From Acidimicrobiaceae bacterium (GTDB taxonomy: Bacteria; Actinomycetota; Acidimicrobiia; Acidimicrobiales; Ilumatobacteraceae): a stretch of 32,451 nt of DNA. The stretch is from positions 1 to 32,451 of the forward strand of contig CANNMD010000009.1 in assembly GCA_947505655.1 (NCBI GenBank). Reading direction: 5' to 3'. Below are positions 15,899-20,349 of the stretch, piece after piece. The first letter of the stretch is position 1. Every line of letters starts with the position of its first letter. The position numbers and the translations under genes are program-made. The notes below the pieces were generated by a model. It worked only from the letters and a program-made list of their open reading frames with translations, was not told the origin of the DNA and ran no database searches.

Positions 15899-17527
15899 GT
15901 GACTACCTCAGGTTGGAATTTTGCTGAAATGTGGGAGCACCACGCCGATCGCTTTCCCGATGCAACGGCGCAGGTGCAAGGCGACCGCGTGTTCACGTGG
16001 AGCCAGTTCGATCGTCGCTCCGACGGCATCGCTGCAACGCTGCTCGCTGCGGGCGCCCAGCACCAAGACAAAGTGGCGCAGTACATGTACAACTGCCCCG
16101 AGTACCTCGAGAGCATGTTCGGTATGTACAAAGCCGGACTCGTTCCGGTCAATACCAACTACCGCTACACCGACGACGAACTGAAGTACCTCTGGAACAA
16201 CGCCGACGCCGTTGCCGTGGTCTTCCATGGCTCGTTCGCAGCGCGCTGCGCCACGCTGCGCGAACAACTGCCGGCCATTCGCACATGGATCTGGGTCGAT
16301 GATGGCAGCGAGCCATGCCCCGAGTGGGCAATCGCTTACGAGACTGCTGCGGCATCCGCTACATCACGCACCGTCGCTCCATGGGGTCGCAGCCCCGACG
16401 ATTTGTACATGCTCTACACAGGCGGCACCACCGGCATGCCCAAGGGCGTGATGTGGCGCCAAGACGATGTCATCGGCAGCCTCGATGCGGCTTCCAAGCA
16501 ACCGCTGCCGTCCGTGCCCGGTTGGGCCCAGCTCGAACAGCGCATCGTCAAGCCGGGCCCTCGCAACCTTCCGGCCGCTCCGCTCATGCACGGCACCGGC
16601 GCATTCAACGCGATGTGGAACCTATCGCTCGCCGGATCAGTGGTCACCTTGCAGGGACGCCACTTTGACCCCATCGAACTGCTCGACACCATCGCGTTGC
16701 AGCGCGTCAACAGCATGTCCATCGTGGGCGACGCATTCGCGAAACCGCTGCTGCGCGCCCTCGACGCGGAACCCAACCGATGGGACATCTCATCGTTGCG
16801 AGTCATCGTCTCAAGCGGCGTGATGTGGTCTGCTGCATCGAAGGCCGGCCTGCTGCGTCACAACGCACGATTGATCCTCATCGACAGCCTCGGCAGCAGT
16901 GAGGCCATCGGTATGGCCAACAACACCACCTCGGCCGACGGTGCCGGCGAGACCGCCAAGTTCACGCTCACACCGCACACCAAGGTGCTCACCGACGATG
17001 GCCGCGAGGTCGTACCCGGCAGCGGCGAACGTGGTCGGGTCGCGCTTCGCGGACGCACTCCGGTGGGCTATTACAAAGACCCCGAAAAGTCAGCCAGCAC
17101 CTTCATCACGTTCGATGGTGTGCGCTGGAGCATTCCCGGCGACTTCGCCGAAGTTGAAGCCGACGGCACCGTCAAGCTGCTTGGTCGCGGCAGCCAGTGC
17201 ATTAACACCGGCGGCGAGAAGGTGTACCCCGAAGAAGTCGAAGAGGCGCTGAAACACCACCCCACCGTGGCCGATGCAGCAGTGGTCGGTCTGCCCGACG
17301 AGCGCTTCGGCGAAGCCATCACCGCGCTTGTTGAACCACACGATGGCGCCGTCATCAACGAGGCCGAGCTCATTGCCCACGTGAAGATTCACCTCGCTGC
17401 GTACAAGGCACCAAAGCGAGTGCTCACCATCGACACCATCGGCCGCGCAGCCAACGGCAAGCTCGATTACAAGCGCCTCAAAGCCGAAGCCGTTGCCCAG
17501 CTCGGCGGGCCCGCCGACGCTGGTTGA
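15899..17527 (+). CDS. Acyl-CoA synthetase (FadD19-like, ANL superfamily)
   Basis: A 542-residue AMP-forming ligase. The P-loop-like motif YTGGTTGMPKGVMWR lies near residues 173-187. A SLGSSEAIG adenine-site motif follows, and the C-terminal part has VGYYKDPEKSA, IPGDFAEVEADGTVKLLGRGS, NTGGEKVYPEEVEEALKHHP and a final NGKLDYKRL with the catalytic lysine. The order and wording closely follow FadD19 of mycobacteria, which activates C24 branched steroid side chains, and related medium/long-chain FadD proteins. It converts a carboxylate, ATP and CoA to acyl-CoA. It is followed by an Hsd4B-like SDR. The family is certain; the steroid role is inferred. Confidence 0.92.
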   Translation: MTTSGWNFAEMWEHHADRFPDATAQVQGDRVFTWSQFDRRSDGIAATLLAAGAQHQDKVAQYMYNCPEYLESMFGMYKAGLVPVNTNYRYTDDELKYLWNNADAVAVVFHGSFAARCATLREQLPAIRTWIWVDDGSEPCPEWAIAYETAAASATSRTVAPWGRSPDDLYMLYTGGTTGMPKGVMWRQDDVIGSLDAASKQPLPSVPGWAQLEQRIVKPGPRNLPAAPLMHGTGAFNAMWNLSLAGSVVTLQGRHFDPIELLDTIALQRVNSMSIVGDAFAKPLLRALDAEPNRWDISSLRVIVSSGVMWSAASKAGLLRHNARLILIDSLGSSEAIGMANNTTSADGAGETAKFTLTPHTKVLTDDGREVVPGSGERGRVALRGRTPVGYYKDPEKSASTFITFDGVRWSIPGDFAEVEADGTVKLLGRGSQCINTGGEKVYPEEVEEALKHHPTVADAAVVGLPDERFGEAITALVEPHDGAVINEAELIAHVKIHLAAYKAPKRVLTIDTIGRAANGKLDYKRLKAEAVAQLGGPADAG

Positions 17528-18480: not shown

Positions 18481-18532
18481 GCGCTTCTTGCCCTAAGTGC
18501 TTCTCGGCCGAGTGGGTTCTCGGCCGAAACAC
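18469..18532. repeat. Four imperfect 16-bp tandem repeats over the SDR stop codon
   Basis: Units start at 18469, 18485, 18501 and 18517: TTCTTGGCCTAAGCGC, TTCTTGCCCTAAGTGC, TTCTCGGCCGAGTGGG, TTCTCGGCCGAAACAC. The first contains the gene's TAA; the second carries another TAA. They occupy most of the convergent gap before the lipoprotein gene. Confidence 0.65.
18504..18527. terminator. Bidirectional hairpin between convergent genes
   Basis: The palindrome TCGGCCGA occurs at 18504-18511 and 18520-18527 with an 8-nt loop, forming an 8-bp stem in the last two 16-bp repeats. There is no T-run. It could end transcription from the SDR gene and the opposing lipoprotein gene. Confidence 0.4.
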
Positions 18533-18578
18533 ACGGGACCTCGCAGGCCCAGCGCCCACGAAGTCCCGCGCGAATTGT

Positions 18579-19236
18579 TTAGATCTTCGGAACCGTCACT
18601 GGCGACGTATCGACCAGTGCCGTGATGTCGGTGCGCACTTCGGCAGCACCGCCATCGGATGTGCTGCTATAGCTCAGTGAGCTCAGCGCCGAACCGTTGA
18701 TCGTGAACACCACATCTACCGCTGCATCACCCGGCAGCGAAAGCGCCGACGCCGGGTAGCTCGCCGTGAGCACCGTTGGCGCACCCGCGCCCGACGACGT
18801 AACCGTCACCGAAGTTGGCGCTCGAAGTGCACCGATCGGATCAGCAGGCGCCGTGTCGTCGGTGACCTCAGACCATGTGCCGTCCTTGTTCACCCATGTA
18901 GCGGTGGGGGTGACCACATAGTCAACCGCCGCGCCATTTGATGACACGTTCATGCGTGTGCTGTCGCCCACTCGGTCGCCTGCAGCGGTGACTGCTGCGG
19001 TGCCGTTCACCGTGGCCGTGCTCGAGAAGTGATAGCCCGGCGCTAACTGGTCAATGGCAGTCTGCAAAACAGTGACCCCATCGACCGCTTGATCGATTGC
19101 GATCGACGTGGCTGACGACTGGTCAGCCTGACCCGCATTGACGCCTGGATCATTCCCGCTGCACGACGATGCGAGCATTGCAACGAGCAAAGGCCCGGCT
19201 CCCCAGATGAGGAGCCGGGCCTTTGAAGGAGTGAAA

Positions 19237-19244
<8 letters not shown>
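18579..19244 (-). CDS. Putative lipoprotein, LppX/LprG-like fold possible
   Basis: A 221-residue exported protein starting MADFTPSKARLLIWGAGPLLVAMLASSC, with a hydrophobic segment and a lipobox-like LASSC. Beyond the Cys it has SGNDPGVNAGQAD, an amphipathic helix (DQAVDGVTVLQTAIDQL), then Ser/Thr-rich beta strands with ATWVNKDGTWSEV. This loosely recalls mycobacterial LprG/LppX or LolA-like lipid-binding lipoproteins, but I do not recognise a specific family. The ATG overlaps the stop of the upstream gene by 8 bp, so the two probably form an operon. Unusually, codons for the signal peptide contain a perfect 14-bp hairpin. The frame is open upstream to 19520, but that region is the antisense-frame shadow of the Asp repeats. 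Confidence 0.7.
19189..19224 (-). terminator. Strong hairpin inside lipoprotein signal-peptide codons
   Basis: Perfect 14-bp inverted repeat: AAAGGCCCGGCTCC (19189-19202) and GGAGCCGGGCCTTT (19211-19224), loop of 8. Reading the minus strand it begins 13 nt after the stop codon of the Asp-rich protein gene, the usual place of an intrinsic terminator, and ends in TTT. It lies wholly inside codons ~7-19 of the overlapping lipoprotein gene. Confidence 0.6.

Positions 19245-20349
<1,105 letters not shown>

Follow-up and report, generated by a model that had tools for sequence, protein, structure and literature searches.

The locus examined here raises the question of what a strong hairpin does when it lies directly behind the stop codon of one gene while its bases also encode the signal peptide of the next. 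It forms part of a stretch of 32,451 nucleotides that was analysed as a whole (the window), and its features are listed in Table 1. The upstream gene (gene 1) encodes a secreted Asp-rich protein and is preceded by a Shine-Dalgarno-like GGAGG at 20359-20355, whereas in the ortholog sequences no well-placed Shine-Dalgarno sequence was found upstream of the lipoprotein gene (gene 2), which makes translational coupling of gene 2 to gene 1 likely. The 8-bp overlap described previously is confirmed as the 8-nt ATGGCTGA. A later lipoprotein start, at a TTG or ATG past the stem, was considered and rejected, as divergent orthologs retain the overlap start, the basic R10 and the lipobox cysteine C28.

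Table 1. Coordinates of the features of the locus within the window.
Feature	Position	Strand	Details
Gene 1, secreted Asp-rich protein, 370 aa (P0002)	19237..20349	minus	ATG 20349, stop TGA 19239-19237
Gene 2, lipoprotein, 221 aa (P0001), lipobox LASSC	18579..19244	minus	predicted LprG/LprF-like fold
Stop/start overlap of gene 1 and gene 2, 8 nt, ATGGCTGA	19237..19244	minus	
Hairpin	19188..19225	minus	5' arm 19225-19211, loop 19210-19203, 3' arm 19202-19188
Gene-end hairpin of the operon, 19 bp, 6 nt past gene 2 stop	18530..18572	minus	ordinary 3'-end stem

On the minus strand the stem reads CAAAGGCCCGGCTCC, with the loop TCATCTGG and the second arm GGAGCCGGGCCTTTG, and comprises 15 perfect base pairs; RNAfold adds an inner U-G and C-G pair, giving 17 pairs, a 4-nt loop and -36.2 kcal/mol. 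It begins 11 nt past the TGA of gene 1 and spans nt +20 to +57 of gene 2, that is, codons 7-19. A preliminary description of the locus had placed a perfect 14-bp stem 13 nt past the stop and within the first 20 lipoprotein codons; the stem gains one pair and the placement holds, but the distance is shorter. The hairpin is the best short inverted repeat across the 32-kb window, and none of 200 dinucleotide shuffles (z -7.7) and none of 300 synonymous recodings (z -6.2) is as stable. A search of Rfam gave no match at the gathering score, and none of the sub-threshold matches lies at the hairpin.

The pair was followed through 28 orthologs of gene 2 from one actinobacterial family, drawn from relatives in the same genus and family together with named genomes, the latter contributing 11 loci from Ilumatobacteraceae/Acidimicrobiales-type metagenome-assembled genomes (MAGs); overall, most of the genomes compared are MAGs. 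A gene 1 homolog lies directly upstream in all 26 orthologs with sufficient upstream sequence. The junction is tight throughout: 13 of the 28 share the 8-nt overlap, and in the remainder the two genes overlap by another short length or stand a few nucleotides apart.

Selection on the stem itself was assessed ortholog by ortholog: the most stable 42-nt fold within the initial 102 nt of gene 2 was set against 300 synonymous recodings, with codon usage pooled over the orthologs, and codons 61-94 served as the control. The mean z is -3.0 at the start of gene 2 and -0.06 in the control region, which indicates that the recoding method has no overall bias, and in half of the orthologs (14/28) none of the 300 recodings is as stable as the observed stem. 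Furthermore, strong hairpins (simple stem score of at least 33) occur in 20 of 28 windows covering the first 190 nt of gene 2, as compared to 0/60 windows later in gene 2 and 2/131 in gene 1. A 1.75-kb profile has a single outstanding bin, which covers nt 0-41 of gene 2 at a mean minimum z of -3.7, and the operon end comes next.

The letters of the stem differ among genomes while the pairing persists. When the 15 orthologs with a 4-nt loop are aligned on that loop and reduced to 13 distinct sequences, both sides have changed in 11 of 17 pairs, and covariation scores 0.541, as compared to 0.255 after shuffling and about 0.1 for slid structures. The loops are mostly of the NUCG type (UUCG, CUCG, AUCG), as in the stems CGGCGAGTGCGGCTGCTC-TTCG-GAGCGGCCGCACTCGCCG of G018 and CAGCAGCCCGACTCCTC-CTCG-GGGGGGTCGGGCTGCTG of G022. 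Within one genus, G154 and G158 carry CGGCCAGG.../...CCTGGCCG and CGGCGAGG.../...CCTCGCCG, respectively, and the compensatory change exchanges Trp and Ser. Clearly different stem sequences number about 10, many of the aligned rows being close relatives. Across the 13 inner pairs of the 15 orthologs there are 168 Watson-Crick, 25 G-U and 2 unpaired cells, which are not independent of each other; the 25:2 preference for G-U over mismatch implies that the sense RNA is conserved and not a DNA palindrome. Together, the recoding test and the covariation indicate that the hairpin is a selected, sense-strand RNA element and no by-product of the codons. Of the earlier proposal, the double use of these bases, for the signal peptide and for an RNA element, is borne out. 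The comparison of stem and codons in relatives that it suggested gave the reverse of stem loss with retained codons: the stem is kept through compensatory changes although its sequence has changed.

The place of the element is less strictly kept than its pairing. The stem starts no less than 13 nt from the first base of the gene 2 start codon and about 10 nt or more past the stop of gene 1; counted from the gene 2 start codon, the loop of the main group falls at +28 to +37, and counted from the gene 1 stop, at 24 to 39. In G023, G025 and G241, no stem above expectation is found within the first 102 nt of gene 2, and 14-15 bp stems are displaced to +86, +88 and +147, respectively, in the linker behind the lipobox, as expected if a stem behind gene 1 is what counts. 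Three further loci, L020 (G005), L043 (G243) and L015 (G004), carry stems that, though imperfect, still surpass their recodings. No convincing hairpin was found in five of the 28 orthologs, G006 (L018), G242 (L028), G030 (L029), G240 (L032) and G244 (L042), where the gene pair is intact. This drift and loss suggest that the element is favoured but not essential, and that its exact place is flexible.

To which class of stem the element belongs can be judged from the gene ends of these genomes. In 0.4 Mb each of G000 and G018, surveyed with home-made gene calls, most of the strongest stems occupy gaps that follow gene ends; their tails are poor in U, and in G000 nearly all top-class stems are within 60 nt of a stop. 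Several of the gene-end stems in the genome of the window have the form AAGGCCCGG...CCGGGCCTTnnGTT. The 19-bp stem behind gene 2 is nearly identical in G007 and G002, and next to it, between convergent genes, lies a second inverted repeat (18497-18534). Tail T content is 0.25 for the embedded stems and 0.22 for the stems at the operon ends of these loci, and 12 gene-end stems of G000 have 0.36. The embedded stem is thus of the normal 3'-end stem class of these genomes, in which terminator and protector look alike at the sequence level: since the gene-end stems of the same loci are also free of a U-tract, the U-tract test cannot part termination from protection.

Comparable stems at tight gene junctions are rare. 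Among 264 tight tandem pairs from two genomes (133 + 131, home-made gene calls), only four hairpins score at least 32 behind the first stop: this locus in both genomes, and two others in G000, which by their translations are the junctions of a BMP-type solute-binding protein with an ABC ATPase and of metK with priA. In both of these cases the first gene is likely to be highly expressed and its product is expected to be in excess, and metK/priA is a probable further pair of high and low expression. At the solute-binding protein/ABC ATPase junction the hairpin persists at each of the 11 loci that could be read, its own and those of 10 relatives; it lies within the start codons called for the ATPase in the G000 group and is intergenic in most of the other loci. 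In G000 itself (L080:16239-16277, contig 3), an 18-bp hairpin occupies the first codons of the ATPase, whose sole GTG start is at 16224, behind the gene of the BMP-type solute-binding lipoprotein; it is kept in G007 and G002, and in eight further relatives its counterpart is a stem 19-65 nt past the stop. At the metK/priA junction (L097, about 14931, minus strand), a 13-bp stem extends from the metK stop into the priA start.

What the element does can be approached from four observations, namely the stem itself, its selection as sense-strand RNA, its place and its linkage to gene 1. The reading that we favour, at roughly even chances, is that of an operon stoichiometry hairpin embedded in coding sequence, which would protect the 3' end of the gene 1 mRNA or form it, and would thereby probably raise the output of the gene 1 protein relative to the lipoprotein. 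The two genes would be co-transcribed, and the sense RNA would fold a 14-18 bp stem just past the gene 1 stop, within the first codons of gene 2 and just beyond the space covered by an initiating ribosome; at the observed position there is space both for a ribosome that terminates on gene 1 and for another that initiates on gene 2. Following cleavage, or Rho-type termination, inside gene 2, 3'-5' exonucleases would halt at the stem, leaving a stable gene 1 mRNA while the lipoprotein part decays. In addition, the stem may contribute partial termination, and, at the overlap, it may reduce coupled re-initiation. The net outcome would be a high level of the gene 1 product and a low level of the lipoprotein.

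The nearest published precedent for a stem that has no U-tract and lies in the coding sequence of the next gene concerns protection against 3'-5' exonucleases and not attenuation (PMC5927463). In E. coli, the downstream coding sequence holds 17 of 26 protective stems, which lack a U-tract and are conserved, and such stems are found 107 +/- 56 nt into the gene (PMC5927463), whereas most stems described here lie at +14 to +60. Four features of protective hairpins, namely excess stability, a place in the downstream coding sequence, conservation and no U-tract (tail T content 0.25), are present. Like the protective 3' hairpins of the malE-malF type (Dar and Sorek 2018, PMC5927463), which are mostly inside the downstream coding sequence, U-tract-free, conserved and often found in transport operons, the element is a stable stem behind the first gene. 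It differs from them in that it occurs in uncultured actinobacteria, lies nearer the start, in signal-peptide codons, and has had its sequence largely replaced from genome to genome.

The main rival to protection is partial termination at an I-shaped stem that lacks a U-tract, with or without ribosome control: some polymerases would stop after gene 1, and in the attenuator version re-initiating ribosomes would lessen this stopping. This is possible but less probable. The preliminary description called the hairpin terminator-like, and it does share its class with the long stems after gene ends. The G+C-rich stem of a canonical intrinsic terminator is present and the U-tract directly after it is absent, the tail T content of the embedded stems is close to background, and a simple terminator scan did not list the hairpin because it lacks a run of T. 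At the window locus the tail is borderline, since the foot of the stem closes with three T followed by CTCGTTG, which might allow weak termination, and the stems between the solute-binding protein and ABC ATPase genes have T-richer tails. Furthermore, an I-shaped stem in a Mycobacterium tuberculosis operon reduced a downstream reporter in vivo (PMC5335608), although in vitro work on mycobacterial RNA polymerase reportedly showed a dependence on the U-tract (Czyz et al. 2014, as cited in PMC5335608). The actinobacterial I-shaped terminators (e.g. T-tsaD, PMC5335608) likewise have a long, G+C-rich, U-tract-free stem behind a gene within an operon; the hairpin described here resembles them in stem form and differs in that translated codons of gene 2 run through it. 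The attenuator of the preliminary description, in which ribosomes coming through the overlap would melt the stem and allow the lipoprotein to be made, is possible in that the overlap and the missing Shine-Dalgarno sequence, with the coupling that the latter makes likely, would permit it, but no sign of regulation is seen in the sequence.

An effect on translation alone, in which a stem ahead of the initiating ribosome tunes termination and re-initiation and thereby affects only the translation of gene 2, appears unlikely. Coupling at an overlapping stop and start (PMC12548453) has the 8-nt overlap and a second gene without a Shine-Dalgarno sequence in common with this locus, but known coupling structures usually cover the start region, whereas the stem here lies behind the start. 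A library study, as summarized in a review (PMC12548453), found that structure right past the stop lowers coupling, and in the main group the loop position is steadier from the start codon than from the stop. That constancy is weak evidence, however, as the position is tied by homology to the signal-peptide codons. The displaced stems of G023, G025 and G241 are out of reach of initiation, which makes a purely translational role less likely, and the solute-binding protein/ABC ATPase stems are mostly intergenic.

That the hairpin merely follows from the signal-peptide codons or from G+C-rich sequence, without an RNA function, is very improbable: the codons of the aligned R-L-L-x-G-x-A/G motif (e.g. 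RLLFGGAAL) can pair mutually and five orthologs lack the stem, but the stability beyond all recodings in half of the orthologs, compensatory changes of which some alter amino acids, and the linker stems of three genomes, in genes that have no such stems elsewhere, argue against it. A DNA-level inverted repeat, such as an operator or the end of a mobile element, is the least credible reading, for although the repeat in the window is a perfect palindrome with a spacer, its sequence is not conserved among genomes, the preference for G-U is sensible solely for sense RNA, and the exact stem pattern is found once in the genome, on which ground membership in a repeat family was also rejected.

The locus carries two codes on the same bases, a signal peptide and a 14-18 bp stem, kept over family-level divergence while the letters change. 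It suggests that little-studied actinobacteria set the protein ratios of tight operons by stems hidden in the next gene, a form of ratio-setting that has so far been measured mainly in enterobacteria. The excess over synonymous shuffles at the starts of second genes offers an approach that can be used on any genome to find further cases. A more far-reaching idea, which we regard as doubtful, is a family-wide RNA switch in signal-peptide codons, in which translation through the overlap would govern folding, lipoprotein output would report translation of the Asp-rich protein, and the stem would have been reinvented repeatedly under the joint constraint of coding and pairing.

Neither protein has a match in Pfam. 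The predicted model of the lipoprotein has a mean pLDDT of 77.9, with a core above 90, and the closest solved structures are M. tuberculosis LprG and M. bovis LprF (best 3mh8, 3mh9 and 4qa8; E 3e-6 to 4e-6). A lipid-binding lipoprotein of the LppX/LprAFG type is therefore a reasonable lead for the gene 2 product, which resembles these mycobacterial lipoproteins in predicted fold but is only 14-16% identical to them, with a TM score of about 0.5. Always paired in this actinobacterial family, the lipoprotein and gene 1 families may constitute an undescribed two-gene unit of the cell envelope. The Asp-rich tail of the gene 1 protein is encoded by a GAC/GAT repeat (window positions 19300-19380, minus strand), and among the orthologs this tail differs in length and composition, being Asp-, His- or Gly-rich, while the tight junction is kept.
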